From Actinomycetota bacterium (GTDB lineage Bacteria > Actinomycetota > Actinomycetes > Propionibacteriales > Propionibacteriaceae), in assembly GCA_020161795.1 (NCBI GenBank), contig JAIUOR010000034.1:1-48005 (forward strand): DNA of 48,005 nucleotides. Reading direction: 5' to 3'. Positions 8,207 to 48,005 of the stretch are shown here, one piece after another. Every line of letters starts with the position of its first letter. Position 1 is the first letter of the stretch. The notes under the pieces are model-generated. The model saw only the letters and a list, made by a program, of their open reading frames with translations, had not been told where the DNA came from and searched no databases. The position numbers and the translations under genes were made by a program.

Positions 8207-8292
8207 CGGACCATTGTCGGCGAGTACCGGGCGAATCGCCGCATCGCCGCCGCGCCCGCTAGCCGGCGCGGCGATTCCGGGGGCTCCTGATT

Positions 8293-8321
8293 TTGCATGA
8301 TGTGGGCCGGCGTGAAAGAAT
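8293..8321 (+). promoter_or_regulatory. Candidate promoter of the S10-spc operon
   Basis: TTGCAT at 8293-8298 and AAGAAT at 8316-8321 are separated by 17 bases, the best -35/-10 pair in the 319-base gap before rpsJ. Initiation near 8328 would give a leader of about 200 bases. Confidence 0.5.
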
Positions 8322-8525
8322 CGACAGGTTGCTCCGGATCGGACGTCCCCTTGGACGGCCGGCCGGCAAGTCTGGTGCGTCAGTGCCGGGCCCTACCACG
8401 ACCCAATGAAATCGGATCGCGCGCGGCCCAGAACAGGCACGACACGCCCGACCGCGGGGGTCGGGGCAACAGCTCCTCCGGGAGATGCACCGGGAGAGCA
8501 CCGATCGAGTTGTAAAGGACATCCA
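8322..8525 (+). other. Leader region of the ribosomal protein operon
   Basis: The gap from 8207 to 8525 has no convincing ORF. Its right part would be transcribed as a leader. CCCGACC at 8447-8453 pairs with GGTCGGG at 8459-8465. AAAGGA about 7 bases before the rpsJ GTG is its ribosome binding site. In E. coli the S10 leader is where L4 represses the operon; nothing here proves the same. Confidence 0.4.
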
Positions 8526-8837
8526 GTGGCGGGACAGAAGATCCGGATTCGTCTCCGGGCTTACGACCACGAGGTCATCGACTCCTCGGCGAAAAAGATC
8601 GTCGACACCGTGACCCGTACCGGCGCGAAGGTGGCTGGCCCTGTGCCGCTGCCGACCGAGAAGAACGTGTTCTGCGTGATCCGTTCGCCCCACAAGTACA
8701 AGGACAGCCGCGAGCATTTCGAGATGCGCACCCACAAGCGGCTGATCGACATTCTCGACCCGACGCCGAAGACCGTCGATTCGCTGATGCGGCTCGACCT
8801 GCCGGCCGGGGTCGACATCGAGATCAAGCTTCCGTGA
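8526..8837 (+). CDS. rpsJ: 30S ribosomal protein S10
   Basis: The 103-residue protein opens with [17 protein letters not shown] and has [28 protein letters not shown], the strongly conserved S10 core. S10 sits in the 30S head and also acts with NusB in antitermination. The GTG start fits AAAGGA upstream. It is the first gene of the long ribosomal operon, following a roughly 200-base leader. Confidence 0.98.
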
Positions 8838-8848
8838 GGTCATCGGCA

Positions 8849-9508
8849 ATGAGTAGCGAACGTAATGTGAAGGGCCTCCTGGGCACCAAGCTCGGCATGA
8901 CTCAGGTGTGGAACGAGGCCAATCAGGTCGTTCCCGTCACCGTCATCCAGGCCGGCCCCAATGTGGTCACCCAGATCCGCACCCCCGACAACGACGGATA
9001 CTCCGCCGTTCAGCTCGGTTTCGGTGCCGTCAAGGTCAAGAACGTCAACAAGCCGGACGCCGGTCACTTCGACCGCGCCGGCGTGACGCCCCGCAAGCAC
9101 CTGGTGGAGCTGCGAACCTCCGACGCCAGCACCTACGAACTCGGGCAGGAGCTGACCGCCGAGGTCTTCGCCGCCGGCGAGATCGTGGACGTGACCGGCG
9201 TCAGCAAGGGCAAGGGCACCGCGGGCGTCATGAAGCGGCACGGCTTCGGCGGCCTGCGCGCCAGCCACGGTGTGCACCGCAAGCACCGCTCGCCGGGCTC
9301 CATCGGCGCCTCGGCCACTCCCTCCCACGTCTTCAAGGGCACCCGGATGGCCGGGCGCATGGGCGTGGAGAAGGTCACCGTGCAGAACCTCACCATCCAC
9401 GCGGTCGACGCCGAGCGCGGGCTGATCCTGGTCAAGGGCTCCGTGCCCGGCCCCAAGGGCGCCCTCGTCGTCGTGCGCTCCGCCGCCAAGAAGGGAGCCC
9501 AGGCATGA
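8849..9508 (+). CDS. rplC: 50S ribosomal protein L3
   Basis: The 219-residue protein starts with [14 protein letters not shown] and contains [15 protein letters not shown] and [19 protein letters not shown], the extended loop that reaches toward the peptidyl transferase centre. L3 is an early assembly protein of the 50S subunit. The ATG at 8849 gives normal length; a GTG at 8834 would overlap rpsJ. Its stop overlaps the rplD start (ATGA). Confidence 0.98.
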
Positions 9509-10149
9509 GCGAGTCCCTGACCGTGAAGGTGCTCGGCACCAAGAAGACCGTCGATCTGCCCGCCAAGGACTTCGACGCCCAGACCAATGTCCCGCTGATC
9601 CACCAGGTCGTGGTGGCCCAGCAGGCCGCTGCCCGCCAGGGCACCCACGCCACCAAGACCCGGGGGGAGGTCGCCGGTGGTGGCGCCAAGCCGTGGCGTC
9701 AGAAGGGCACCGGCCGCGCCCGCCAGGGTTCGCGCCGCGCCCCGCAGTGGACCGGCGGCGGTGTCGTCCACGGCCCGCAGCCGCGCAGCTACGCCCAGCG
9801 GACGCCCAAGAAGATGATCGCCGCCGCCCTGCGCGGTGCGCTCTCGGATCGGGCTCGCGAGGGTCGCGTGCACGTGATCGACCAGATCGTGGCGAACGAG
9901 ACCCCCTCCACCAAGGCGGCGCTGGCGGCGCTGGCCGAGATCGGCGGCGCCAAGCTGCTGGTGATCCTGTCCCGGGACGAGGACGTGGCCTGGCTGAGCC
10001 TGCGCAACGTCGCCTCGGTACACGCGATCGCGGTCGACCAGCTGAACACCTACGACGTGCTGCTCAGCGACGACGTGGTGTTCACCACCGCTGCGCTGGC
10101 GGTCTTCACCGGCCAGGGCGCGCAGGAGAACGAGGAGGCCGCGAAGTGA
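9505..10149 (+). CDS. rplD: 50S ribosomal protein L4
   Basis: The 214-residue L4 has [25 protein letters not shown], the basic loop that lines the exit tunnel, and a C-terminal Rossmann-like domain. In E. coli L4 also represses this operon. The start overlaps the rplC stop by four bases, and its own stop overlaps the rplW GTG, so the three genes are translationally coupled. Confidence 0.98.
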
Positions 10150-10454
10150 GCGACTACAAGATCACCGACCACCGCGACATTCTGCTCGCGCCGGTCGTCA
10201 GCGAGAAGAGCTACGGCCTGCTCGATGAGAACAAGTACACCTTCGAGGTGGCGCGCGACGCGAACAAGACCCAGATCAAGATCGCGGTCGAGCAGGTGTT
10301 CGGCGTCAAGGTCACCAGCGTGAACACGATCAACCGCATCGGCAAGCGCCGTCGCACCCGCTACGGCTGGGGCAAGCGCGCCGACAGCAAGCGGGCGATC
10401 GTGTCGGTGGCCGACGGCCAGCGCATCGACATCTTCTCCGGCCCGGCGGTCTGA
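10146..10454 (+). CDS. rplW: 50S ribosomal protein L23
   Basis: The 102-residue L23 reads [26 protein letters not shown] near its N-terminus, then [16 protein letters not shown]. It sits beside the tunnel exit and docks trigger factor and SRP. The GTG start overlaps the rplD stop (GTGA). Confidence 0.97.
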
Positions 10455-10473
10455 GAGCGAAGAGGACGAGAAC

Positions 10474-11310
<837 letters not shown>

Positions 11311-11328
11311 TTGGGACAGGTGAGATAG

Positions 11329-11610
11329 ATGCCACGCAGCCTGAAGAAGGGCCCCTTCGTCGATGACCATCTGGCGAAGAAGGTTGACCTCCAGAACGAG
11401 AAGGGCACCAAGCAGGTCATCAAGACCTGGTCCCGGCGCTCGATGATCACCCCGGACATGATCGGTCACACCCTCGCGGTGCACGACGGTCGCAAGCACG
11501 TCCCGGTGTTCGTGACCGACGCGATGATCGGTCACAAGCTGGGCGAGTTCGCCCCGACCCGCACCTACCGCGGGCACATCAAGGACGACAAGAAGTCGCG
11601 TCGCCGCTAG
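11329..11610 (+). CDS. rpsS: 30S ribosomal protein S19
   Basis: The 93-residue S19 has [15 protein letters not shown] at the start and [16 protein letters not shown] near the end. It forms a heterodimer with S13 in the 30S head, although rpsM is not in this window. Confidence 0.98.
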
Positions 11611-11632
11611 GCAACGAGAGAAGGAACTGATT

Positions 11633-12025
11633 GTGAGTAGCAACAAGGAGCGACCCAGCCGTCGCGCTGCCCTGCTCGGGGATCGTCCTGGCTCGTACGC
11701 GATCGCGCGTCATGTCCGGATGTCGCCGATGAAGGTGCGTCGAGTGGTCGACCTGGTGCGCGGCATGGACGTGGACGCCGCCCTGGACGTGCTGAAGTTC
11801 GCCCCGCAGGCGGCTTCCGAGCCGGTCTACAAGGTGGTCGCCAGTGCCAAGGCCAACGCCGAGCACACCGAAGGCCTGCGCGGTGACGCGCTGTACATCT
11901 CCGTCGCGTACGTCGACGAGGGCATGACCCTGCGGCGGATTCGCCCCCGGGCGAAGGGTTCGGCCAGCCGGATCCTGAAGCGGGGCAGCCACATCACCGT
12001 CGTCGTCGAACCGAAGGAGGCCTGA
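11633..12025 (+). CDS. rplV: 50S ribosomal protein L22
   Basis: The 130-residue L22 contains [25 protein letters not shown]-type sequence (here [17 protein letters not shown]). It also has [18 protein letters not shown], the beta-hairpin tip that lines the exit tunnel and can be mutated in macrolide resistance. The hairpin looks wild type. The GTG start follows GAAGGAACTG. Confidence 0.98.
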
Positions 12026-12027
12026 GC

Positions 12028-12840
12028 ATGGGTCAGAAGATCAACCCTTACGGCTTCCGCCTGGGGATCACCACCGATCACAAGACCCGGTGGTACGCCG
12101 ACAAGAACTACGCCGACCTGGTGTCCGAGGACGTCAAGATCCGCCGCTACCTGAGCAAGACCCTGGAGCGGGCCGGCATCTCCTCGGTGGAGATCGAGCG
12201 CCGCAGCGAGCGGGTGACCATCTTCCTGTACGCCGCGCGTCCGGGCATCGTCATCGGCCGTAACGGCGCCGAGGCCGAGCGCGTCCGCGCCGAGCTGGAG
12301 AAGCTCACCGGCAAGCAGGTGCAGCTGAACATCCTCGAGGTGAAGAACCCCGAGACCGATGCGCAGCTGGTCGCCCAGGGCATCGCCGAGCAGCTCGGCG
12401 CCCGCGTGGCCTTCCGTCGCGCGATGCGCAAGGCGCAGCAGAGCGCGATGCGCGCCGGCGCCCAGGGCATCCGGATCCAGTGCTCGGGCCGTCTCGGCGG
12501 CGCCGAGATGAGCCGGTCGGAGTTCTACCGCGAGGGACGCGTGCCGCTGCACACCCTGCGTGCCGACATCGACTACGGCTTCTACGAGGCCCGCACCACC
12601 TTCGGCCGGATCGGCGTGAAGGTGTGGATCTACAAGGGCGACGTCTCCGGCAACCGCGCCGAGCGCGCCGCCCAGAAGGCCGCCCGGCAGGCTGCCGGCG
12701 GTCGCGCCCGCCCGGCTCGCGGCCCGCGCCGCGACGGCGGACGTCCCGATCGTCCCGAGCGTGGCGGACGCCGCCGCGCCGAGGCTGTGGCCGAGGGGGC
12801 AGCCCCCGAGGTCGCCGCCGAACAGACCGCAGGAGCCTGA
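12028..12840 (+). CDS. rpsC: 30S ribosomal protein S3
   Basis: The 270-residue S3 starts [15 protein letters not shown] and has the KH domain motif VIGRNGAE with [11 protein letters not shown] after it. S3 forms part of the mRNA entry tunnel. The tail after about residue 210 is an Arg/Gly/Pro/Ala-rich extension typical of actinobacterial S3. It begins 2 bases after rplV and ends 2 bases before rplP. Confidence 0.98.
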
Positions 12841-12842
12841 CC

Positions 12843-13262
12843 ATGTTGATTCCGCGCAGGATCAAGCACCGCAAGCAGCACCACCCGAAGCGGACCGGTG
12901 CTGCCAAGGGCGGTACCAAGCTGGCCTTCGGCGATTACGGCATCCAGGCACTGGAAGGCTCGTACCTGACCAACCGTCAGATCGAGAGCGCCCGTATCGC
13001 CATGACCCGTCACATCAAGCGTGGTGGCAAGGTGTGGATCAACGTCTACCCCGACCGCCCGCTGACCAAGAAGCCCGCCGAGACCCGGATGGGTTCCGGC
13101 AAGGGCTCCCCGGAGTGGTGGGTGGCCAACATCAAGCCGGGCCGGGTGCTCTTCGAGCTCTCGGGCGTCTCGGAGGAGACCGCTCGCGAGGCCATGCGCC
13201 TGGCGATCCACAAGCTGCCGTTCAAGGCTCGCTTCATCAAGCGGGAAGCAGGTGACATCTGA
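12843..13262 (+). CDS. rplP: 50S ribosomal protein L16
   Basis: The 139-residue L16 opens [17 protein letters not shown] and has [19 protein letters not shown] and [18 protein letters not shown]. It helps shape the A-site of the 50S subunit. Its stop overlaps the rpmC start (TGATG). Confidence 0.98.
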
Positions 13263-13492
13263 TGGCCAACTCTGTGACGGCCGCCGAGCTGCGGGGACTG
13301 TCCCGCGACGAGCTCAACGCCAAGGTTGTCGAGCTGAAGGAAGAGCTGTTCGGGCTGCGGTTCGCCGCCGCCACCGGGCAGCTGGAGTCCCATGGCCGGC
13401 TGCGCGAGGCCCGCAAGGACATCGCGCGGATCTACACCGTGCTGCAGGAGCGCAACCTCGGCATCATTTCCGATCCCGATGAGGACAAGTGA
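13262..13492 (+). CDS. rpmC: 50S ribosomal protein L29
   Basis: The 76-residue L29 has [34 protein letters not shown], the helical hairpin of the family. It lies by the tunnel exit near L23. It is coupled by overlap to rplP upstream and rpsQ downstream. Confidence 0.97.
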
Positions 13493-13767
13493 GTCTGATG
13501 AGTGAGAACGACGTCAAGCGTTCGGCGCGCAAGGTCCGCGAGGGCATCGTGGTGTCGGACAAGATGGACAAGACCGTCGTGGTCTCCATCGAGACCCGGG
13601 TCAAGCACCCGCTCTACGGCAAGGTCATGACCAAGTCCGAGCGGCTCAAGGCCCATGACGAGGAAAACGTCGCCGGTGTCGGCGACCGTGTTCGGGTGGC
13701 GGAGACCCGGCCGACGTCGGCCACCAAGCGGTGGCGGCTGGTCGAGGTGCTCGAGAAGGCCAAGTGA
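13489..13767 (+). CDS. rpsQ: 30S ribosomal protein S17
   Basis: The 92-residue S17 carries [22 protein letters not shown] and [22 protein letters not shown], the OB-fold core that binds 16S rRNA helices 7 and 11. The GTG at 13489 overlaps the rpmC stop; an ATG at 13498 is an equally possible start. It is the last gene of the S10-type block. Confidence 0.97.
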
Positions 13768-13783
13768 CCAGGAGAGATTGCAG

Positions 13784-14152
13784 ATGATCCAGCAGGAGAC
13801 GCGACTGAAGGTCGCCGACAACACCGGTGCGAAGGAACTGCTCTGCATCCGGGTGCTCGGTGGCTCGAAGCGTCGCTACGCCGGCCTGGGCGACAAGATC
13901 GTCGCGACGGTCAAGGACGCCATCCCGGGCGGCAACGTGAAGAAGGGCGAGGTCGTCAAGGCGGTCATCGTCCGGACGACCAAGGAGACCCGTCGCCCAG
14001 ACGGCTCCTACATCAAGTTCGATGAGAACGCCGCCGTGATCCTGAAGGGTGACGGGGAGCCTCGGGGCACCCGCATCTTCGGTCCGGTCGGCCGTGAGCT
14101 GCGCGAGAAGAAGTACATGCGAATCATCTCGCTGGCGCCGGAGGTGTTGTGA
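13784..14152 (+). CDS. rplN: 50S ribosomal protein L14
   Basis: The 122-residue L14 starts [27 protein letters not shown] and contains [12 protein letters not shown] and [13 protein letters not shown]. It sits at the 30S/50S interface near L19. CAGGAGAGATTGCAG before the ATG supplies a ribosome binding site. It is the first gene of the spc-type block with no promoter visible before it. Confidence 0.98.
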
Positions 14153-14526
14153 TGAATTCGCTGCATGTGAAGAAGGGCGACCGCGTCAAGGTGATCGCCG
14201 GCAAGTACAAGGGAGTGACGGGCGAGATCATCGCCGTCGATCCCGAGGCCGGCCGGGTCACCGTCCAGGGCGTGAACCTGGTGAAGAAGCACAAGCGGGA
14301 GACCCAGAACAACTCCACCCGGCAGAACAACGCCGCCGGCATCATCACGACCGAAGCGCCGATCGACGCCTCGAACGTGCAGCTGCTGGTCAAGGTGGAC
14401 GGTAAGGAAGTCGTCACCCGCGTCGGCTACGAGCGCCGCGAGGTGACCAAGCGCCGTCCGGACGGTTCGGAGTACACCGCTACCCGGAGCGTGCGGATCG
14501 CCCGCAAGACTGGGAAGGAAATCTGA
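14152..14526 (+). CDS. rplX: 50S ribosomal protein L24
   Basis: The 124-residue L24 has [21 protein letters not shown], the KOW motif, followed by [12 protein letters not shown]. It starts 50S assembly by binding the 5' end of 23S rRNA. The ATG at 14152 is preferred because GGAGG lies 7 bases before it; a GTG one codon earlier is possible. Confidence 0.97.
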
Positions 14527-15155
14527 TGACCGCAGCCACTGCGGAGAAGACGCTGCCGCGTCTGAAGCAGAAGTACCGCGAGGAGATCGCGCCCGCGCTC
14601 CACAAGGAATTCGGCTACGACAACGTGATGCAGATCCCCGGTCTGGTGAAGATCGTGGTGAACATGGGTGTCGGCGAGGCGGCGCGGGATTCCAAGGTCA
14701 TCGACGCCGCGGTGCGTGACCTGACCGCGATCACCGGCCAGAAGCCGACCGTCACCAAGGCTCGCAAGTCGATCGCCCAGTTCAAGCTGCGCGAGGGCAT
14801 GCCGATCGGCTGCCACGTCACGCTGCGGGGCGACCGGATGTGGGAGTTCGCCGACCGGCTGCTCACCCTGGCGCTGCCCCGGATCCGCGACTTCCGCGGT
14901 CTGTCGGCTCGTCAGTTCGACGGCCTGGGCAACTACACCTTCGGTCTGACCGAGCAGGTGATGTTCCACGAGATCAACCAGGACAAGATCGACAAGCTCC
15001 GCGGCATGGACATCACGTTCGTGACCACCGCGCAGAACGACGACGAGGGTCGCGCGCTGCTGAAGGCGCTGGGCTTCCCGTTCAAGGCCCCGGAGAACGA
15101 GGTCGCCAAGGCCGTCAAGAAGCGTCCGGCATACGTCGGCAAGAAGAAGAAGTGA
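14526..15155 (+). CDS. rplE: 50S ribosomal protein L5
   Basis: The 209-residue L5 has [40 protein letters not shown] and [11 protein letters not shown]. It binds 5S rRNA and contacts P-site tRNA. The start overlaps the rplX stop (ATGA). Confidence 0.98.
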
Positions 15156-15163
15156 GCTGATCC

Positions 15164-15349
15164 ATGGCCAAGACTGCCCTGAAGGTGAAGCAGGCTCGCA
15201 AGCCGAAGTTCGCTGTGCGCGCCTACACCCGTTGCAACAAGTGCGGCCGTCCCAAGGCGGTGTACCGCAAGTTCGGCCTGTGCCGAGTCTGCCTGCGCGA
15301 CATGGCCCACAAGGGCGAGCTTCCCGGCGTCATCAAGTCCTCCTGGTGA
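15164..15349 (+). CDS. rpsN: 30S ribosomal protein S14, zinc-binding type
   Basis: The 61-residue S14 is the short zinc-ribbon form. Cysteines 24, 27, 40 and 43 make the CxxC...CxxC site, within TRCNKCGRP and GLCRVC. Many actinobacteria also carry a zinc-free paralogue used under zinc limitation; none is seen here. Confidence 0.98.
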
Positions 15350-15418
15350 TCCAGACCCAACCCAACCCGCAGCAGGTCCCCACCGGGGAAACCGCGGCGA
15401 GAAAGTGAATACCACGTC

Positions 15419-15826
15419 ATGACAATGACTGATCCGATCGCAGACATGCTGACGCGTCTGCGGAACGCCAATCAGGCGTACCACGACTCGACGACCATGC
15501 CGCATTCGAAGATCAAGGCGGGCATCGCCGAGATCCTGAAGAATCAGGGCTACATCGTCGGCTACGAGGTGCTGGAGCCCGCCGCGGGCGAGGTCGGCAA
15601 GAGCCTCAAGCTGCAGCTCAAGTACGGCCAGAACCGGGAGCGCGCCCTCGCCGGCGTCCGACGGATCTCCAAGCCGGGCCTGCGGGTGTACGCCAAGTCC
15701 ACCGCGCTGCCGAAGGTTCTCGGAGGCATGGGCATCGCCATCATCTCCACCTCGCAGGGTCTGCTGACCGACAAAGAGGCCAAGTCCAAGTCCGTCGGCG
15801 GCGAAGTCCTCGCCTACGTCTGGTGA
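15419..15826 (+). CDS. rpsH: 30S ribosomal protein S8
   Basis: The 135-residue S8 has [15 protein letters not shown] at its start and the C-terminal [20 protein letters not shown]8 binds the centre of 16S rRNA and in E. coli represses the spc operon. The 69-base gap before it holds no clear promoter. The ATG at 15419 is used; one at 15425 is also possible. Confidence 0.98.
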
Positions 15827-15840
15827 TCGGAGGATAGAAG

Positions 15841-16383
15841 ATGTCACGCATCGGAAAGCTCCCGATCACCGTGCCCGCCGGGGTGGATATCACCCTGGAC
15901 GGCCAGACGGTATCGGTGAAGGGCCCCAAGGGCAGCCTCAGCCACGTCGTCCGCGAGCCCATCAAGGTCGCGCGCAACGACGCCGGTGAACTGGAGGTCA
16001 CCCGTCCGAACGACGAGCGCGAATCCCGCTCGCTGCACGGGCTGACCCGGACGCTGGTCGCCAACATGGTAACCGGGGTCACCGACGGCTACGAGAAGAA
16101 GCTCGAGATCGTGGGCGTGGGCTACCGCGTCACGGCCAAGAGCCCGACGCAGCTGGAGTTCGCGCTCGGCTTCTCCCACCCCGTGGTGGTGGACGCCCCC
16201 ACGGGCATCACCTTCACGGTGGAGAGCAACACGAAGTTCACCGTGTACGGGATCGACAAGCAGGCGGTGGGCGAGGTTGCCGCCAACATCCGCAAGATCC
16301 GCAAGCCGGAGCCCTACAAGGGCAAGGGTGTGCGGTACGCCGGCGAGCGAGTTCGCCGCAAGGTTGGAAAGGCGGGCAAGTGA
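15841..16383 (+). CDS. rplF: 50S ribosomal protein L6
   Basis: The 180-residue L6 begins [17 protein letters not shown] and has GVGYRV and [19 protein letters not shown] near the end. It lies near the factor-binding site of the 50S subunit. GGAGG lies before its ATG, and its stop overlaps the rplR start. Confidence 0.98.
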
Positions 16384-16766
16384 TGGCTATCTCACTGTCA
16401 ACGCACAAGGGAGTGGCTGCCAGGCAGGCGGCCAGGCTCCGCCGTCAGGCCCGTGGCCGCAAGAAGATCGCCGGCACCGCCGAGCGTCCGCGGCTGGTGG
16501 TCACCCGCTCCAGCCGTCACGTGGTGGCCCAGGTGATCGACGACGCTCGCGGCGTCACGCTGGCCTCGGCCTCCTCCATGGAGACCGACGTCCGCGCGGT
16601 CAGCGGCGACAAGTCGGCCAGGGCCAAGGCTGTCGGCAAGCTGGTGGCGGATCGCGCCAAGGCCGCCGGGGTCGAGAACGTGGTCTTCGACCGCGCTGGC
16701 AACAAGTACCACGGACGGATCGCGGCGCTGGCTGACAGCGCCCGCGAGGCCGGTCTCGGATTCTGA
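16383..16766 (+). CDS. rplR: 50S ribosomal protein L18
   Basis: The 127-residue L18 has [35 protein letters not shown] and ends [21 protein letters not shown]. It binds 5S rRNA with L5. A GTG one codon before this ATG is an alternative start. Confidence 0.98.
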
Positions 16767-16790
16767 CGGATTGCGGAAGGAAAACTAGCG

Positions 16791-17399
16791 ATGAATGGAA
16801 CCCAGCGCCGCGGTGGCGGTGCCGGTGGTGAGCAGCGTCGCGGCCGCGAGGACCGTCGTGGCCGGGATGCTGCCGCCGAGAAGGAGAAGAGCAACTACCT
16901 GGAGCGGGTCGTCGCGATCAACCGCGTCGCCAAGGTCGTCCAGGGTGGTCGCCGGTTCAGCTTCACCGCGCTGGTCGTGGTAGGCGACGGCGAGGGCATG
17001 GTCGGCGTCGGCTACGGCAAGGCCAAGGAAGTACCGGCGGCGATCGCCAAGGGTGTCGAGGAGGCGAAGAAGCACTTCTTCCGCGTCCCGCGCATCCAGG
17101 GCACCATCCCGCATCCGGTGCAGGGCGAGAAGGCCGCCGGCGTGGTCATGCTGCGCCCGGCCTCCCCGGGTACCGGCGTCATCGCCGGTGGCTCGGCCCG
17201 CGCGGTGCTGGAGTGCGCTGGCGTGAAGGACGTCCTGGCCAAGTCCCTGGGCAGCGACAACGCGATCAACGTGGTGCATGCCACGGTGGCCGCGCTGCAG
17301 AGCCTGGAGGAGCCGGAGGCGGTCGCCAAGCGTCGCGGCCTGCCGGTGGCGGATGTCGCTCCGGCCGCGCTGCTGAGGGCGCGCGAGGAGGGCAACTGA
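16791..17399 (+). CDS. rpsE: 30S ribosomal protein S5
   Basis: The 202-residue S5 has an Arg/Gly-rich leader of about 30 residues, then [30 protein letters not shown], the dsRNA-binding-like domain. [21 protein letters not shown] marks the C-terminal domain. S5 affects decoding accuracy. The stop overlaps the rpmD start. Confidence 0.98.
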
Positions 17400-17581
17400 T
17401 GGCACGGCTGAAGGTGACCCAGATCAAGTCTGGGATCGGTGGCAAGCAGAACCAGCGCGACACCCTGCGCACGCTGGGCCTGAAGCGGATCGGCGACGTG
17501 GTCGTCAAGGAGGATCGTCCCGAGATTCGCGGCATGGTGAAGTCCATCCCGCATCTGGTGGCGGTCGAGGAGGTCGAGTGA
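17399..17581 (+). CDS. rpmD: 50S ribosomal protein L30
   Basis: The 60-residue L30 reads [27 protein letters not shown] and ends in a short acidic tail. Length is normal for the bacterial form. It is coupled to rpsE by TGATG and followed one base later by rplO. Confidence 0.97.
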
Positions 17582-17582
17582 C

Positions 17583-18023
17583 ATGACACTGAAGCTTCAT
17601 CACCTGCGTCCGGCTCCGGGAGCCAAGACCGCCAAGACCCGCGTGGGTCGCGGTGAGGGCTCCAAGGGCAAGACCGCGGGTCGGGGCACCAAGGGCACCG
17701 GCGCACGGAAGAACGTGCCGGAGTTCTTCGAGGGCGGGCAGATGCCGCTGCACATGCGGCTTCCCAAGCTGCGTGGCTTCAGCAACCCGTTCCGCGTCGA
17801 GTACCAGGTCGTCAACCTGGCCAAGCTGGCCTCGCTCTACCCCGAAGGGGGAGAGGTGACCGTGGCCGACCTGATCGCCAAGGGCGCCGTCCGCGACGGC
17901 CACCTGGTGAAGGTGCTCGGCAACGGCGAGCTGACCGTGGCACTGCAGGTGAGCGCGAACGCGTTCTCCGCCAGCGCCAAGGAGAAGATCGAGAAGGCAG
18001 GCGGCACCGCTACCCAGCTGTGA
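17583..18023 (+). CDS. rplO: 50S ribosomal protein L15
   Basis: The 146-residue L15 has [35 protein letters not shown] and [16 protein letters not shown]. In most bacteria rplO runs straight into secY. Here a strong terminator lies just after its stop and secY is 854 bases away, so rplO ends the ribosomal transcript. Confidence 0.98.
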
Positions 18024-18034
18024 TCCCTGCTTGA

Positions 18035-18061
18035 GGGCCGGTCCTACGGGACCGGCCCTTT
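18035..18061 (+). terminator. Strong intrinsic terminator after rplO
   Basis: GGGCCGGTCC at 18035-18044 pairs perfectly with GGACCGGCCC at 18049-18058 around a TACG loop, followed by TTT. It is the clearest terminator in the actinobacterial part. Confidence 0.85.
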
Positions 18062-18174
18062 CTCATGCCCGAGTCTTGCCGCTTCTCATGCCCGAGTCTT
18101 GCCGCTTCTCATGCCCGAGTCTTGCCGCTTCTCATGCCCGCGTCCTGTCGCTTCTCATGCCTGCGTCCGCCCGC
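18060..18174 (+). repeat. Five tandem copies of a 23-bp repeat (VNTR)
   Basis: Units begin at 18060, 18083, 18106, 18129 and 18152. The first three are identical (TTCTCATGCCCGAGTCTTGC plus CGC); the fourth and fifth carry a few substitutions. There are no spacers, so it is a simple tandem array, not a CRISPR. The unit length is not a multiple of three, so it does not encode a peptide repeat. Confidence 0.9.
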
Positions 18175-18217
18175 TCGCCTGCTGGCCTGACCGCCCCGCC
18201 TCTCACCCGGCCCCCTC

Positions 18218-18292
18218 CCTCCGAAACCGGGCAATCTGAACCAACTGAGTGGATAGTGGGGTCGGCTGCCCCGAAACACCCGGCTTCTGCGG
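18218..18292 (+). repeat. 75-bp imperfect palindromic element, copy 1
   Basis: The most diverged of three copies. The right arm CCCGGCTTCTGCGG matches the reverse complement of the left arm CCTCCGAAACCGGG at 11 of 14 positions. CCTCTCACCCGG lies before it (18199-18210), as it does before copy 2. Confidence 0.65.
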
Positions 18293-18346
18293 GTCACGGC
18301 CCACTGCCCTGGTCTTTCAGGCCCTGCCTCTCACCCGGTTCCCCTT

Positions 18347-18421
18347 CCGCAGAAACCGGGTGATTCCGCCCCGGCGGCTGGATTGTCCAGTGGGCCACCC
18401 TGAATAGTCCGGTTTCTGCGG
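18347..18421 (+). repeat. 75-bp palindromic element, copy 2
   Basis: The ends CCGCAGAAACCGG and CCGGTTTCTGCGG are perfect 13-bp inverted repeats. The centre contains GGATTGTCCAGTGGGCCA, resembling the centre of copy 3. CCTCTCACCCGG lies at 18327-18338. Confidence 0.8.
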
Positions 18422-18496
18422 TGGCCGGGTACCGCTGAGGACTCCGATGGTGTTGACCGCTTGCCGCTTGGGCACCACCTCGCTCGGCCGGTCCTC

Positions 18497-18571
18497 CCGC
18501 ACAAACGGGGCAATCCGGGCCTGTCGTCCGGACTATCCAGTCAGCCATCCGGATTCACCCGGTTTCTGCGG
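18497..18571 (+). repeat. 75-bp palindromic element, copy 3
   Basis: The left arm CCGCACAAACGGGG and the right arm CCCGGTTTCTGCGG are complementary at 12 of 14 positions. The last 13 bases are identical to those of copy 2, and TATCCAGT in the centre aligns with TGTCCAGT there. Length is exactly 75 bp, as in the other copies. Confidence 0.78.
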
Positions 18572-18800
18572 TCTGGGGTGGGTGGGTGGTGTGGCGGCGG
18601 ATGGGGGTTCGTTGTGTGTGGGAGGGACTGCGGATTGGGCTCGTGGTGTGGGGGTGTTGTGGATGCGGATTGGGCTCAGGGTCTGGGGGCGGTGCGGCTG
18701 CGGAGGGGTTCGTGGTGTGGGGGCGCGGACGGCATGGGGTCACGATTCGGCAACTGTGGTGTGCCGGGGTGGGCCCTGGAGTGATTCGATGCGGGGTTGA
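18572..18800 (+). repeat. G-rich, strand-biased stretch with short direct repeats
   Basis: The plus strand is dominated by runs of G and GT. TGCGGATTGGGCTC occurs at 18629-18642 and 18664-18677, and TCGTGGTGTGGGGG at 18641-18654 and 18710-18723. Short ORFs here have no family-like sequence. The region could form G-quadruplexes on the non-template strand. Confidence 0.6.
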
Positions 18801-18814
18801 CGGGCCGTAGTTGG

Positions 18815-18820
18815 TAGAGT
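18815..18820 (+). promoter_or_regulatory. -10 box (TAGAGT) of secY
   Basis: TAGAGT would start transcription near 18827 and leave a leader of about 50 bases. The leader contains a small hairpin (GTCGGC 18835-18840 with GCCGAC 18846-18851) and AAGGGGAG before the ATG. No convincing -35 is seen at the right distance. Confidence 0.5.
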
Positions 18821-18877
18821 CGGTCCGGTTGTGTGTCGGCGCTGGGCCGACGAGTCATGCAAGGGGAGTCAGTTCGG

Positions 18878-20203
18878 ATGCTTTCCGCGTTCGCCAATGC
18901 GTTCAAGACGCCGGATCTTCGTAAGAAGATCCTGTTCACGCTCGGGATCCTGGCTGTCTTCCGGTTCGGCTCGGTGGTGCCGACGCCGAACGTGAACCTG
19001 CAGAACGTCGATCAGTGCCGCGCGATGTCGCTGGCGGGTGAGGGCTCCGGGCTCTACTCGATGATCAACCTGTTCTCCGGCGGCGCGCTGCTGCAGCTGG
19101 CGATCTTCGCCCTCGGCATCATGCCCTACATCACGGCGAGCATCATCCTGCAGCTGATGACGGTGGTGATTCCCCGGCTGGAGGCCCTGAAGAAGGAGGG
19201 CGCCGCCGGCACCGCCAAGATCACCCAGTACACCCGCTACCTGACGATCGTGCTGGCGATCCTGCAGTCCACGGCCTTCGTGACGATGGCCGTCAGCGGC
19301 CAGCTCTTCCAGGGCTGCACCCTGCCGCTGGTCTACGACGTCAGCGTCTTCCCGATCATCGTGATGGTGCTCACCATGACCGCCGGCACCGGCGTGATCA
19401 TGTGGCTGGGCGAGCTGATCACCGACCGCGGGGTCGGCAACGGCATGTCGGTCATGATCTTCACCCAGATCGCCGCCCAGTTCCCCGCCCAGCTGTGGGG
19501 CATCAAGGAGAGCCGCGAGGGCGCTGCCGGCTGGCTGGCCTTCGTGCTGGTGCTGGCCGTCGGCCTGCTGGTGATGGCCGCGGTCATCTTCGTCGAGCAG
19601 GGCCAGCGACGGATCCCCGTCCAGTACGCCAAGCGGATGGTCGGGCGCAAGCTGCTCGGCGGCAGCACCACCTACATCCCGATCAAGGTCAATCAGGCCG
19701 GCGTCATTCCCGTCATCTTCGCCTCCTCACTGATCTACCTACCGGTGCTGTACTCCCAGTTCGTACCCGGCACGATCGACGATCCCAACCCGGTCTCGGT
19801 CTGGATCCAGACCCACCTGGTGACCGGCACGTCGTGGGTCTACAACGTGCTCTACGCGGCGCTCATCATCGGCTTCGCCTACTTCTACGTCTCGATCACC
19901 TTCAACCCCGACGAGGTGGCCGACAACATGAAGAAGTACGGCGGCTTCATTCCGGGCATCCGCGCGGGCGAGCCGACGGCCCGCTACCTGAAGCACGTGC
20001 TGTCGCGGCTGACCGCCCCCGGCTCGCTCTACCTGGCGATCATCGCGCTGATACCGGCGGCGGCGTTCATCTGGCTCGGCACGCAGGCACAGTTCCCCTT
20101 CGGCGGCACCTCGATCCTGATCATCGTGGGCGTCGGCCTGGATACCGTCAAGCAGATCCAGAGCCAGTTGCAGCAGCGCAACTACGAGGGCTTCCTGCGC
20201 TGA
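18878..20203 (+). CDS. secY: Protein translocase subunit SecY
   Basis: SecY is the channel of the Sec translocon. The 441-residue protein begins MLSAFANAFKTPDLRKKILFTLGILAVFRFGS, with the first membrane helix of ten. FSGGALLQLAIFALGIMPYITASIILQLM covers the plug and second helix. RRIPVQYAKRMVG and PIKVNQAGVIPVIFASS mark the cytoplasmic loop and following helix. The ATG at 18878 gives the usual N-terminus with AAGGGGAG upstream; the longer reading has no family support. It has its own promoter and terminator, unlike the usual rplO-secY arrangement. Confidence 0.97.
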   Translation: MLSAFANAFKTPDLRKKILFTLGILAVFRFGSVVPTPNVNLQNVDQCRAMSLAGEGSGLYSMINLFSGGALLQLAIFALGIMPYITASIILQLMTVVIPRLEALKKEGAAGTAKITQYTRYLTIVLAILQSTAFVTMAVSGQLFQGCTLPLVYDVSVFPIIVMVLTMTAGTGVIMWLGELITDRGVGNGMSVMIFTQIAAQFPAQLWGIKESREGAAGWLAFVLVLAVGLLVMAAVIFVEQGQRRIPVQYAKRMVGRKLLGGSTTYIPIKVNQAGVIPVIFASSLIYLPVLYSQFVPGTIDDPNPVSVWIQTHLVTGTSWVYNVLYAALIIGFAYFYVSITFNPDEVADNMKKYGGFIPGIRAGEPTARYLKHVLSRLTAPGSLYLAIIALIPAAAFIWLGTQAQFPFGGTSILIIVGVGLDTVKQIQSQLQQRNYEGFLR

Positions 20204-25653: not shown

Positions 25654-25664
25654 GCCGGAAAGGC

Positions 25665-25696
25665 CGGTGGGCCCCGGGATCACCCGAGGCCCACCG
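25665..25696. terminator. Bidirectional terminator between the ATP-grasp operon and mdh
   Basis: CGGTGGGCC (25665-25673) and GGCCCACCG (25688-25696) make a perfect 9-bp stem between two converging genes, and can serve both. Confidence 0.75.
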
Positions 25697-25710
25697 ACTC
25701 TGTGGCTGGA

Positions 25711-42263: not shown

Positions 42264-44114
42264 ATGACCGATACCCCGTTGCTGCTGGCCGGGGACTTCG
42301 CCACTCCCACCCGTGAACAATGGGAAGCCGAAGTTCTCAAGGTACTCAATCGCGGCCGCCCCGAAGGCAAGGAACTCACCCTCGACAAGGCGATGGCGCG
42401 GTTGCGCACCACCACCGTCGACGGCCTCACCATCGAGCCGCTCTACACCCGTACCGATGCCCCGCTCGGGCACCCGGGCGTCATGCCGTTCACCCGCGGC
42501 ACCATGGTCAAGACCAGCCCGATGGTGACCTGGGACGTCCGCCAGCTCCACGAGGATCCGGACGTCGCGATGACCAAGCGCGAGATCCTGGCCGACCTGG
42601 AACGGGGGGCGAGCTCGGTGTGGCTGCGGATCGGCAGCGACGCGATCGCCGTCGAGGATCTGGCCGCCGTGCTGGACGGGGTCGAGCCCGATCTGGCGCC
42701 CATCTCGCTCACCAGCGCCGAGGACCAGGTGGCCGCCGCCACGGCGCTGGTCGGCTTCTGGCGCGCCAAGGGCGCTGAGTTCGCCCGCGGCAACCTGGGC
42801 CTGGACGCCCTCGGCCTGACCGCGCGGACGGGGCGGGCCCCCGACCTGAGCGCGCAGGCCGAGTGGGTGCGGACCTGCCTAGCGGACTTCCCGGCGGTAC
42901 GTGCGCTGTCGGTCGACGTGCTGCCCTACGACGACGCCGGCGCCAGCGACGTCGACCAACTCGCCTTCGCGATCGCCACCGGCGTGGCCTACCTGCGTGA
43001 CCTGGAGGCGGCGGGCATCCCGGCTGCCGACGGGGCCGGCCAGATCGCCTTCCGGGTGAGCGCCAACGCCGACCAGTTCATGACCATCGCCCGCCTGCGC
43101 GCGCTGCGCCGGCTCTGGGCGCGGGTCTGCGAGGTCAGCGGAGTTCCCGCCGAGGCTCGCGGCGCCGTCCAGCACGCCGTCACCAGCTGGCGGATGATCA
43201 CCCGCGACGACCCGTGGGTCAACCTGCTGCGCGGCACCATCGCCACCTTCGCCGCCGCCGTCGGCGGTGCCGAGATCATCACCTGCCTTCCGTTCGACAC
43301 CGCCCAGGGCCTGCCGGACGAGTTCAGCCGCCGCATGGCTCGCAACACCCAGATCCTGGCCGCCGAGGAGTCCAACATCGGCAAGGTCTCCGACCCGGCC
43401 GGCGGCGCGTGGTTCGTCGAGTCGCTCACCGACCAGCTGGCCGCGAAGGCCTGGGAGGTCTTCCAGCAGATCGAGGCCGCGGGCGGCATGGCCGCCGCGC
43501 TCACCTCGGGCCTGGTCGCCGAGCGCATCGCGGCCTCGAATGCCGAGCGGGCCAAGCGCCTGGCCAACCGCAGCCAGCCGCTGACCGGTGTCTCGATGTT
43601 CCCGAACCCGGCCGAGGAGCCGCTCGCCGTCCGTCCCCGCCCGGCTGCCCCCGTGCGCGCGGGCCTGGCGCCGCAGCGCGACAGCGAGATCTTCGAGGCG
43701 CTGCGCGACCGCGCGGCCGCCGCCGATCCGAAGCCGGCCGTCTTCCTGGCCCGGCTCGGTGCCCAGCGTGACTTCGGTGCGCGGGAGACCTTCGTCGGCG
43801 CCCTGCTGGGTGTGGCCGGCTTCGACCTTCCCGCCAGTGCGGGGGGGACGCCGGAGGAGATCGTCGCCCAGGTGCTCGCGTCCGGTGCGAAGTTCGTCGT
43901 CCTCTGCTCCTCGGCCAAGGTCTACGCCGCCCAGGCGGTGGATGTGGCCCGCGCGCTGAAGGAAGCGGGCATCCCGACGGTCTACATCGCCGGCAACCGC
44001 CGCGAGGCGGCCTCCGACGAGGTCAACGACTGGATCGACGGAGAAGTGTTCATGGGTATGGACGTGGTCGCCTTCCTCTCTCAGGCGATGGACCGGATTG
44101 GAGTGGCACGGTGA
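42264..44114 (+). CDS. mutA: Methylmalonyl-CoA mutase, small (beta) subunit
   Basis: MutA is the non-catalytic partner of MutB in the adenosylcobalamin enzyme that interconverts succinyl-CoA and methylmalonyl-CoA, the key step of propionic fermentation. The 616-residue protein has a degenerate TIM barrel ([61 protein letters not shown]). It also has a C-terminal flavodoxin-like domain ([34 protein letters not shown]). That domain lacks the DxHxxG cobalamin motif, as expected for this subunit. The stop overlaps the mutB GTG (GTGA). The sequence is actinobacterial throughout. Confidence 0.95.
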
Positions 44115-46321
44115 CATTTTCAGAGGGGACCAGCATCCCCAACTTTGAAGGCATCGACCTGGGGGCCGCCCTGCCCCCGGCCGACTCCGCCGCACAGTTC
44201 GACGCCCTGCTGCACGCCTCCCCGATGTACTCCGAGGGGTGGCAGACCCCCGAGCACATCCTCGTCCCTCCGATGTACGACGAGCGGGCCTACGAAGGGC
44301 TCGACTTCCTCAACACCTACCCGGGCATCCCGCCCTTCCTGCGCGGGCCGTACGCCACCATGTACGTCAACCAGCCGTGGACGATCCGGCAGTACGCCGG
44401 CTTCTCCACCGCCGAGGAGTCGAACGCCTTCTACCGGCGCAACCTGGCCGCCGGCCAGAAGGGCCTGTCGATCGCCTTCGACCTGGCCACCCACCGTGGC
44501 TACGACTCCGACCACCCGCGGGTGACCGGCGACGTCGGCATGGCCGGCGTGGCGGTGGATTCGATCCTTGACATGCGGCAGCTCTTCGAGGGCATCCCGC
44601 TGGATCAGATGTCGGTCTCGATGACCATGAACGGTGCTGTGCTCCCCGTCCTGGCCCTCTACGTGGTGGCCGCCGAGGAGCAGGGGGTGAAGCTGGAGCA
44701 GCTCGCGGGCACGATCCAGAACGACATCCTCAAGGAGTTCATGGTTCGCAACACCTACATCTACCCGCCGGCGCCGTCGATGCGGATCATCGCCGACATC
44801 TTCGCCTTCACCAGCGCGAACATGCCGAAGTTCAACTCGATCTCGATCTCCGGCTACCACATGCAGGAGGCCGGGGCGACGCAGGACCTCGAGCTCGGCT
44901 ACACATTGGCCGACGGCGTCGAATATATCCGCGCCGGCCAGCGCGCGGGCCTGTCCGTCGACGTCTTCGCGCCGCGCCTGTCCTTCTTCTGGGCAATCGG
45001 CATGAACTTCTTCATGGAAGTCGCCAAGATGCGGGCCGCCCGCCTGATCTGGGCGAAGCTGGTCAAGGACTTCGGCGCGCAGAACGAGAAGTCCCTTCCC
45101 TTGCGCACCCATTGCCAGACCTCCGGCTGGTCGCTGACGGCGCAGGACGTGTTCAACAACGTGCCGCGCACGATGATCGAGGCGATGGCGGCGACCCAAG
45201 GCCATACCCAGTCGCTGCACACCAATGCCCTCGACGAGGCTTTGGCTCTGCCGACCGATTTCTCGGCCCGCATCGCCCGCAATACCCAGATCCTGCTGCA
45301 GCAGGAGAGCGGCACCACCCGGATCATCGATCCCTGGGGCGGTTCTTACTATGTCGAGCGGCTGACAGCGGAGCTGGCGGAGAAAGCCTGGGGCCATATC
45401 CAGGAGGTTGAGAAGCTCGGCGGCATGGCCAAGGCGATCGAGGCCGGCATCCCGAAGCTGCGCATTGAGGAGGCCGCCGCCAAGACGCAGGCCCGCATCG
45501 ACGGCGGCCAGCAGGCGATCATCGGCGTCAACTGCTACAAGCCCGACAACGAGGCGACGATCGACGTGCTCAAGGTCGACAATGCCGCGGTGCGCGCCCA
45601 GCAGCTCGACAAGCTCAGGCGCCTCAAGGCCGAGCGCAGCGAGACCGAGGTGCAGGCGGCGCTGACCGCGCTGACCAATGGCGCCGCCGGCAACGGCAAC
45701 CTGCTCGACCTCGCGGTCAAGGCCGCCCGCGCCAAGGCCACCGTCGGCGAGATCTCCATGGCGATGGAGCAGGTCTTCGGGCGCCACCGGGCCGAGATCA
45801 AGGCGATCTCCGGCGTCTACAAGCGGGAGGTCGGCGAGATGAACCCAGCCGTGACGCGCGTCCAGTTGATGTGCGAGGCGTTCGAGGAGGCGGATGGCCG
45901 CCGCCCGCGCATCCTCGTCGCCAAGATGGGCCAGGACGGGCATGATCGCGGCCAGAAGGTCATCGCCTCGGCCTTCGCCGACCTCGGCTTCGACGTCGAT
46001 ATCGGCCCGCTCTTCGCGACGCCAGACGAGGCGGCGCGGCAGGCGGTCGAGAACGACGTCCACATCGTCGGCGTCTCCTCGCTGGCGGCGGGGCATCTCA
46101 CGCTGGTGCCGGAGCTGAAGGCGGCGCTCACCAAGGCCGGCCGGCCCGACATCATGATCGTCGTCGGCGGCGTCATCCCGCCGCAGGATTTCGACGCGCT
46201 GATCGAGGCCGGCGCCTCGGCGATCTTCCCGCCCGGCACCGTCATTGCAGACGCCGCCGAAAAGCTGCTGGAAGAGCTCAACCAGCGCCTCGGCTACGCC
46301 CAGCGGACGGCAGCGGAGTGA
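44111..46321 (+). CDS. mutB: Methylmalonyl-CoA mutase, large subunit (probable chimeric sequence)
   Basis: The 736-residue reading frame is a complete Mut[31 protein letters not shown] and [21 protein letters not shown] form the TIM barrel start. The C-terminal cobalamin domain has D609-G-H611-D-R-G614 (the DxHxxG His ligand of the cobalt). The first roughly 250 residues resemble propionibacterial MutB. From about residue 250-270 on, the codon use and protein (for example [26 protein letters not shown]) look alphaproteobacterial. No meaB/argK chaperone gene follows, which propionibacteria usually have. I read it as two genes joined at a conserved sequence, although the frame is intact. Confidence 0.9.
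44700..44930. other. Probable junction between actinobacterial and alphaproteobacterial DNA
   Basis: The change lies between about 44,700 and 44,930, most likely in the segment encoding [13 protein letters not shown]. Counting by hand, 6 of 150 codons end in A or T at 44411-44860, against 14 of 150 at 44861-45310. Codons ACA TTG (44903) and GAA TAT (44921) mark the new style. All genes after this point lack the TANNNT leaderless pattern. Confidence 0.7.
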
Positions 46322-46363
46322 TGTGATAAGCTGGGTTTCGGCCCTTGAACCGATCACTTCGCC

Positions 46364-46660
46364 ATGATGAACCAAGACCAATTGAAGCAGCGCATTCTGG
46401 CCATGCGGCCGGATTTGCGCGCGCGCGGCGTCAGCCACATGGCGCTGTTCGGCTCTCGGGCACGCGGCGATGCCCGACAGGACAGCGATGTCGACCTGAT
46501 GATCGAGGTCGACGATCCCGGCTTCTCTCTCATCGATCTGGTTGGTATCCAGCAGGACCTGTCGGAAGAGATCGGCTTGCCGGTCCAGATCACAATGCGC
46601 CGCAGCTTGTCCGAGCGGCTGGCGGAAGCCATACGAAACGAGACCGTCGAGCTGTTCTGA
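46364..46660 (+). CDS. MNT-type nucleotidyltransferase (antitoxin of a HEPN pair)
   Basis: The 98-residue protein has the minimal nucleotidyltransferase motif FGSRARGDARQDSDVDLMIEV, with G30-S31 and the metal-binding D42 and D44. MNT proteins of this size pair with HEPN proteins as toxin-antitoxin systems, in which the MNT enzyme can add AMP to the HEPN toxin. The start may also be the next ATG (46367). Its stop overlaps the HEPN start (TGATG). It belongs to the alphaproteobacterial part of the window. Confidence 0.88.
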   Translation: MMNQDQLKQRILAMRPDLRARGVSHMALFGSRARGDARQDSDVDLMIEVDDPGFSLIDLVGIQQDLSEEIGLPVQITMRRSLSERLAEAIRNETVELF

Positions 46661-47001
46661 TGGCGGTGACGTTCCGCGATCGCATCGCGCATATGAAGGA
46701 TGCGATCGCGCATATCCGCAGCCTTCGCGCCAAAGCTTCCGACACCCGGATCAGGCACGACCCGGTCCTGCGTGCCGCGCTTGAGCGCTTCTTCGAGATC
46801 ATCAGCGAAGCGAGCCGCCATATCCCCGAAGATCGGCGGGCGGCCTATCCGGACATCCCCTGGAAACGCATCGCAGGCATCGGCAATGTGCTGCGCCATG
46901 CCTATGACGGCGTCGACATCGACCTCCTGCTCAACACGGCAGGCCCCGAGCTCGATGCGCTGGAACGAGCCGTGTCACAACTGCTCGACGCCCCGGAATA
47001 A
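46660..47001 (+). CDS. HEPN-domain protein (DUF86, HepT-like toxin)
   Basis: The 113-residue helical protein has AYPDIPWKRIAGIGNVLRHAYDGVD, the DUF86 signature. The RNase motif of HEPN toxins is Rx4HxY; here the alignment reads G75-N-V-L-R-H80-A-Y82. His and Tyr remain but the Arg is Gly, with another Arg next to the His. Proteins with this IGNxLRH variant are familiar to me from alphaproteobacteria, so it may be a subfamily rather than a dead enzyme. It is coupled to the MNT gene. Confidence 0.86.
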   Translation: MAVTFRDRIAHMKDAIAHIRSLRAKASDTRIRHDPVLRAALERFFEIISEASRHIPEDRRAAYPDIPWKRIAGIGNVLRHAYDGVDIDLLLNTAGPELDALERAVSQLLDAPE

Positions 47002-47006
47002 AAGAA

Positions 47007-47036
47007 GGCGGGCGCTGCCAGCCGGCAGCGCCCGCC
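47007..47036. terminator. Strong terminator between HEPN and the secreted protein gene
   Basis: GGCGGGCGCTGCC and GGCAGCGCCCGCC form a perfect 13-bp stem with an AGCC loop. On the minus strand the stem is followed by TTCTTTTATT, so it ends the secreted-protein transcript with a proper U-tract; it may also serve the plus strand. Confidence 0.85.
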
Positions 47037-47063
47037 CCATGATCACGACCGACGTGGCGACAC

Positions 47064-47333
47064 TTACCGCCAGCCGTAACCATAGCCGTAGCGCGGCGGA
47101 GGCGGCCGCATGCCATAACCGTCGGAATAACGATGCCAGCGCCGCTGGCCCCAGAAGCCGTGGACGGCGGGCGGCGCCGGGCGCCAGCCATAGCCGTAAG
47201 CCGGGCGATCGTAGGAGCGTTCATAGCCGCCGAAGGCCTGAGCCTCGCCTGCTCCGGCGAATGCCGAGGCTGTAAGCATAGCGCCGCTGAGCGCGAGCGC
47301 TGCCAAACCGATCCGGGCGCGATTGCCAAACAT
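47064..47333 (-). CDS. Small secreted Tyr/Gly/Arg-rich protein
   Basis: The 89-residue protein has a signal peptide (MFGNRARIGLAALALSGAML then TASAFAG; cleavage is likely after an Ala between 26 and 33). A mature part rich in Tyr, Gly, Arg and Pro follows, with repeats of the YGYGWR type at residues near 48 and at the end. Short exported proteins like this are common in Hyphomicrobiales and their role is unknown. A hairpin (GGCAGGG 47352-47358 with CCCTGCC 47363-47369) lies just upstream of the start on the minus strand. Confidence 0.75.
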   Translation of the reverse strand: MFGNRARIGLAALALSGAMLTASAFAGAGEAQAFGGYERSYDRPAYGYGWRPAPPAVHGFWGQRRWHRYSDGYGMRPPPPRYGYGYGWR

Positions 47334-47393
47334 GGTCTCATGTCCTGTTCCGGCAGGGGTCTCCCTGCCACGGATCGGACATTCGCATGGCGT

Positions 47394-47425
47394 GGCTGAA
47401 CGGGCTTTGAGAGCGCCGTTCAGCC
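47394..47425 (-). terminator. Terminator after the ABC permease gene
   Basis: GGCTGAACGG (47394-47403) and CCGTTCAGCC (47416-47425) make a perfect 10-bp stem 5 bases beyond the permease stop on the minus strand. Confidence 0.7.
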
Positions 47426-47430
47426 ACCGT

Positions 47431-48005
47431 TTAGCTGCCGGACAATTGCTCGCGCTTCAGCAAGATCGAGGCGGCAATCACGACGACGGCGACCGCCCCG
47501 ATCATGATCGTGCAGGCGGCATTGATCTCCGGCGAGACGCCGAGCTTGACCGCCGAATAGAGCCGCATCGGCAGCGTGGTCGCGCCCGGCCCCGTGGTGA
47601 AGCTTGCGATGACGAGGTCGTCGAGCGAGAGCGTGAAGGCCAGCATCCAGGCCGCCGCCACCGCCGGCCAGATCAGCGGCAAGGTTACGGTCCAGAAGGT
47701 GACGAAGGGCGTGGCCCCCAAATCCTGAGCTGCCTCTTCCAGCGAGCGGTCGAAGCCGACGAGCCGCGACTGCACGACGATGCAGGCAAAGCCGAGACTG
47801 AAGGTTGCGTGGGCGATCGTCACGGTCCAGAAGCCGCGCTCGACATCGGCGGCGACGAAGAGCAACAGCAGCGACAGGCCCGTCACCACCTCGGGCATGA
47901 CGAGCGGCGCCAGCACCATGCCGGAGAACATCGTGCGTCCGATGAAGCGGCCATGGCGCGCCAGCGCAAGCGCCGCCAGCGTTCCGAGGATCGTCGCCAC
48001 TGTCG
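47431..48005 (-). CDS. ABC transporter permease, PotI/YdcV-like (partial)
   Basis: This is the C-terminal part (at least 190 residues) of an inner-membrane permease for spermidine/putrescine-type ABC importers. FSGMVLAPLVMPEVVTGLSLLLLF and AHATFSLGFACIVVQSRL are membrane segments. EEAAQDLGATPFVTFWTVTLPLIWPAV is the EAA loop that contacts the ATPase. LAFTLSLDDLVIASFTTGPGATTLPMRLYS is the typical PotI end region. The frame stays open to the window edge, so the start is missing. It is alphaproteobacterial in style. Confidence 0.88.
   Translation of the reverse strand, partial: TVATILGTLAALALARHGRFIGRTMFSGMVLAPLVMPEVVTGLSLLLLFVAADVERGFWTVTIAHATFSLGFACIVVQSRLVGFDRSLEEAAQDLGATPFVTFWTVTLPLIWPAVAAAWMLAFTLSLDDLVIASFTTGPGATTLPMRLYSAVKLGVSPEINAACTIMIGAVAVVVIAASILLKREQLSGS

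Follow-up and report, generated by a model that had tools for sequence, protein, structure and literature searches.

Background

Chimeric contigs of metagenome assemblers are described in a review as arising from k-mers that related genomes share, the account dealing mostly with related species and not with different phyla (PMC7299287). In the CAMI data of another study the most frequent type of error is given as the inter-genome translocation (PMC9661791).

The gene order with which the present case has to be compared is that of the actinobacterial mutA-mutB-meaB operon, and we found the three genes to be contiguous in all five same-genus loci that were read (L097, L098, L099, L104 and L105), one of them from a single-contig genome. 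Here we describe a contig that leaves this operon within mutB and continues in alphaproteobacterial DNA.

The contig and its mutB gene

The window, by which we mean the whole stretch of 48,005 nucleotides that was analysed, is the entire contig C21 of draft genome G000 (67 contigs, 3.47 Mb), which is presumably metagenome-assembled and for which the quality scores are 95.6% completeness and 3.8% contamination. The native mutA gene (42264-44114, plus strand), for the small subunit of methylmalonyl-CoA mutase, encodes an MM_CoA_mutase domain and has 93% amino acid identity to the gene of G018, the closest same-genus genome, in which it is contiguous with mutB and meaB. The mutB open reading frame (44111-46321) encodes 736 residues without an internal stop, and by Pfam its product has one MM_CoA_mutase domain (residues 45-557, covering profile positions 1-512 of 512) and one B12-binding domain (residues 600-714). 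With the frame open and both domains recognised a gene caller would see nothing odd, as had been pointed out in an earlier reading of this DNA made without database searches (the sequence-only reading), which noted that the frame is preserved.

There are observations on two other regions of the window. Ribosomal protein genes (L4, L2 and S3) through SecY occupy 8908-20203, where the AT skew is raised and the tetranucleotide signal is less distinct, and as the stretch 8289-18068 is 92% identical to G018 this region is native to the genus. A second break in gene order is at 25654-25710. A transglutaminase-like gene has its stop at 25653, and its neighbour, on the minus strand from 25711, is a gene for a lactate/malate dehydrogenase, both identified by Pfam. 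Both flanks are present at full length in 19 of the 29 other genomes of the genus, and their adjacency was not seen in any of these 19: they are on different contigs in 17, and in G001 and G011 they share a contig, at distances of about 1.27 and 1.09 Mb. As both sides are native, this break is either a rearrangement or another mis-join, in this case within the genome.

The lineage switch in mutB

We aligned the window ORF with nine same-genus mutB sequences, 18 alphaproteobacterial loci, 80 named loci and the partial mutB on contig C44 that is discussed below. The ORF has 96.0% amino acid and 94.4% nucleotide identity to G018 over residues 7-255, and 70.3% and 74.1% respectively over residues 262-727. 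This pattern is reversed in the 15 closest alphaproteobacterial loci, with 76.6-84.6% amino acid and 74.3-81.1% nucleotide identity in the first part (several of them start only at residue 41 or 42), and 92.5-98.3% and 88.2-92.7% in the second. The proposal of the sequence-only reading that mutB has an actinobacterial 5' part and an alphaproteobacterial 3' part is thus upheld. In DNA comparisons there is no break within either group, four pairs within the genus giving 85.8-87.4% identity in the first part and 85.1-88.5% in the second, and two pairs within the alphaproteobacteria 93.0-93.6% and 91.7-92.2%. Two pairs between the genus and the alphaproteobacteria gave 77.0-80.9% and 72.7-73.5%, the higher value in each case being for the first part of mutB, which is thus somewhat more conserved across phyla.

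Strict lineage-specific sites were counted over residues 41-727, a native-specific site being one at which 8 or all of 9 genus rows and none of 15 alphaproteobacterial rows agree with the window, and an alpha-specific site one at which 13 or more of those 15 and no genus row do so. The rows were nine of the 11 other same-genus loci (L085-L093, without L094 and L095) and 15 of the 18 aligned alphaproteobacterial loci (without L106-L108). All 29 native-specific sites are before the join, the last at 44793, and all 129 alpha-specific sites are after it, the first at 44882; no strict site is on the wrong side, and the join is thus bracketed between 44793 and 44882. The window equals G018 at every base of 44773-44880 and differs from it at 44881-44884, at 44888 and onward, and at 44813-44815 it equals G018 and differs from all 18 alphaproteobacterial rows. 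Four of the nine genus rows carry the alphaproteobacterial letters at 44813-44815, so the left edge of the join rests on G018, and using G018 the lineage change narrows to 44816-44881. The ORF, on the plus strand, then consists of a native 5' part (44111-44815), a join zone common to both lineages (44816-44881) and a foreign 3' part (44882-46321). The sequence-only reading had put the switch at 44700-44930 and in the segment encoding a particular run of 13 residues, and the join is within that interval and crosses those codons.

When 100 rows were compared half by half the window was the only strong switch (margins +0.126 and -0.219), with marginal sign changes in L023 (+0.039, -0.006) and L077 (+0.001, -0.028). 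These rows are the window, 50 actinobacterial and 49 alphaproteobacterial sequences, with phylum labels taken from record titles and group; they do not include the C44 sequence or the eight named loci, out of 80, whose phylum was a different one or unclear. L004-L006 derive from the same genomes as L106-L108, and in the choice of neighbours any identical pair was passed over.

Among named organisms the best taxa of the two halves are an Arachnia propionica MAG for residues 42-256 (92.6% amino acid identity, with 85.1% for the best named alphaproteobacterial row) and Alsobacter soli for residues 258-727 (85.7%). The mutB of the genus is itself nearest to Arachnia in both parts, in the three genus rows tested. 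Apart from Arachnia, the 41 named actinobacterial rows have a median of 83.3% in the first part, and the 31 named alphaproteobacterial rows one of 81.9%. If rows with unequal residue coverage are ranked, the best named amino acid match to the 5' part is the alphaproteobacterial MAG L006 (85.0% over 214 residues), and the Arachnia propionica MAG L050 has 83.0% over 247 residues. Named organisms alone thus rank the 5' part weakly and, Arachnia aside, the phyla are poorly separated, so it is the same-genus genomes on which the native assignment of this part is based.

The foreign tail

Foreign DNA starts at 44882 and makes up the remaining 3.1 kb of the contig, which stops at 48005; within this stretch a second junction is not seen, any beyond the contig end being out of view. 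The sequence-only reading assigned this DNA to Hyphomicrobiales. The placement can be made more precise, as the family group to which Alsobacter soli belongs, which we take to be Beijerinckiaceae in the GTDB sense: the tail matches genomes in this group, and of 298 genomes sampled from the larger family 292 gave a match. Identity in the top rows for 44880-48005 ranges from 84 to 93%, the first (G323) being 84% identical over 2.1 kb and the next six 91-93% identical across mutB. Relatives have thus been found and the donor has not, as none of the 298 genomes is identical to the tail and the best has 93% nucleotide identity over mutB. The closest plasmid record, from Bosea sp. 685, has 87.3% identity in the mutB part only (45% of the query), and the donor may have been Bosea-like.

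Beyond mutB the tail carries genes for an MNT-type nucleotidyltransferase (46364-46660, plus strand; NTP_transf_2), a HepT-like (HEPN) protein (46660-47001, plus strand; HepT-like, PF01934), a small Tyr/Gly/Arg-rich protein that matched no Pfam family and was taken to be secreted in the sequence-only reading (47064-47333, minus strand) and a PotI-like permease cut by the contig end (47431-48003, minus strand; BPD_transp_1). We read the gene order over 12-16 kb in six alphaproteobacterial loci (L127-L132), and in five of them the small protein and permease genes follow mutB in the same order. The amino acid identities are 83-95% for the permease homologues and, for those of the small protein, 80-90% in four loci and 51% in the fifth; L128 has mutB, with neither of the two genes within the 16 kb read. 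The nucleotidyltransferase has a homologue of 81% amino acid identity straight after mutB in L130 (G323:C41), with a homologue of the HEPN protein (67%) in the same place. This pair was not found in L127, L128, L129, L131 or L132 at E 0.001, and with its presence in only one of the six loci it may represent a mobile insertion next to mutB.

Composition had also been put forward as a point of comparison, and by tetranucleotide distance the tail is nearer to the alphaproteobacterial loci (0.070, the reference including the homologous region) than to the native part (0.155). In none of 41 overlapping native slices of the size of the tail was the distance to the alphaproteobacteria smaller than that to the remaining native DNA, and the composition of the tail falls outside the range of these slices. 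A 16 kb alphaproteobacterial locus used as query on G000 gave no further stretch of that region among the best 40 of 469 candidates, where, apart from the chimeric mutB and tail, all matches above 82% were of 65 bases or less. The other matches in that set were the C44 sequence (72%), 962 bases on C32 (69%), 531 bases on C50 (66%), 553 bases in the mutA gene of the window (67%) and shorter ones.

The native continuation

The native 3' half of mutB is in the same genome at G000:C44:3-1118, beginning with residue 362 at the first bases of that contig, and its stop is followed by meaB (MeaB by Pfam). The sequence-only reading treated meaB as missing, which holds for C21, where it does not follow mutB, but not for the genome. 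The C44 half has 93.4% nucleotide and 95.4% amino acid identity to G018, and 72.3% nucleotide identity to the mutB 3' part of the window itself, and the G018 DNA past meaB also continues on C44. As the operon is contiguous in the genus, the part of C21 that precedes the join and the DNA that opens C44 are thus, judged by sequence, the two halves of one native operon. Between them there is a gap of about 310 native mutB bases. These were not recovered when G000 was searched with G018 DNA, the C21 and C44 pieces being the only ones to cover or border this gap among the best 40 of 468 candidates.

The possibility of a second native mutB copy was considered and rejected. Besides the C21 ORF and the C44 half, the search of G000 gave nothing but a weak match to mutA. 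The single-contig genome G001 has one mutB, again with the match to mutA, so that a single operon split in two is a better fit than a second copy. The native allele has not been replaced, as its 3' half from residue 362 on is kept on C44.

Contig ends inside mutB are present in 8 of the 28 genus genomes with a match, G000 included. The other seven drafts are G005, G013, G014, G015, G020, G021 and G023 (the loci include L100, which is G015:C17:80000-86553, L102, L103 and L144-L150), and in G015 the end is at residue 265, close to the join in the window. For mutA, used as control gene, the count is 2 of 26, with G005 left out as its sole match there is its mutB piece. The difference is not significant (Fisher p = 0.079), and is no more than suggestive of mutB being cut by contig ends more often than mutA.

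Origin of the join

In proxy genomes, which are not the actual pair and for which the real length would depend on the unseen donor, an exact run of 62 bases (44819-44880) at the join is common to G018 and two of the 15 alphaproteobacterial loci, and the run shared with G018 is 50-59 bases in six more and below 50 in the other seven, including L113, the locus closest to the tail. Within a shared run the genomes cannot be separated by a graph assembler for short reads if its word length is smaller than the run. We infer that the mutB fusion is almost certainly a chimera of two genomes made by a metagenome assembler and not a recombinant gene. The native genome would have a single mutA-mutB-meaB operon, and the same sample would contain an alphaproteobacterium with a mutB nearly identical over some 60 bases around the codons for the 13 residues. 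The assembly path would have gone into the shared stretch from the native genome and out into the alphaproteobacterium, ending 3.1 kb after the join, with the remaining native mutB and meaB left stranded as the start of C44. The frame is kept across the join as the genes are homologous, and an assembly break leaves just such a native half, headless, at the end of a contig and followed by meaB. As is characteristic of inter-genome chimeras, the lineage changes abruptly at one point, the sequence shared at the join in the proxy genomes would be long enough for k-mer overlap, the true native continuation is at another contig end, that of C44, and the foreign side is colinear with a foreign genome. 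The sequence-only reading also favoured an assembly chimera, and the position of the native mutB 3' half and meaB at the start of C44, together with the colinearity of the tail with alphaproteobacteria, bears this out.

True homologous recombination between phyla would instead have given the actinobacterium a working hybrid mutase, the displaced 3' half remaining, together with meaB, at another chromosomal site. The reading frame of the ORF is indeed intact, with the mutase domain and the B12-binding domain both present, and near-identical DNA such as that at the join is usable by homologous recombination too. However the headless native half, with meaB behind it, is exactly at a contig end, where under recombination it would have to fall by chance, and the foreign piece reaches the contig end without a second junction being seen, follows the gene order of alphaproteobacterial genomes through several unrelated genes and is still alphaproteobacterial in composition. 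It is the native 3' half with meaB at a contig end that leads us to set recombination aside as very improbable. Even less credence can be given to a ligation or amplification artefact in the library that was then reported by the assembler. Template switching during amplification also prefers shared sequence, and the join does lie in a shared run, but it can be argued that isolated chimeric molecules would lose out to normal coverage, and that a 3.1 kb tail needs many consistent molecules.

Given an assembly chimera, the mutB fusion would as biology be an artefact and not a real feature. For curation it means that a genome with good quality scores carries a 3.1 kb foreign tail and a seemingly complete enzyme that belongs to two phyla, and such chimeric entries can mislead gene-transfer searches and protein family trees. 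What settled this case, a search of other contig ends for the headless native half, is a cheap and general check.

Comparison with known systems

With regard to known inter-genome misassemblies, the locus is like them in that shared sequence connects two genomes, that a single point marks the change in both composition and neighbours, and that the true continuation is left stranded at the end of another contig. It is unlike them in that the shared stretch is in a protein gene conserved between phyla and is not one shared by close strains, and in that the frame is kept, so that annotation shows an intact gene. The actinobacterial mutA-mutB-meaB operon can be recognised in its parts, with the native mutA and mutB 5' part on C21 and the 3' half and meaB on C44. 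In contrast the assembled ORF mixes the genes of two organisms, and should not be counted as a natural protein.
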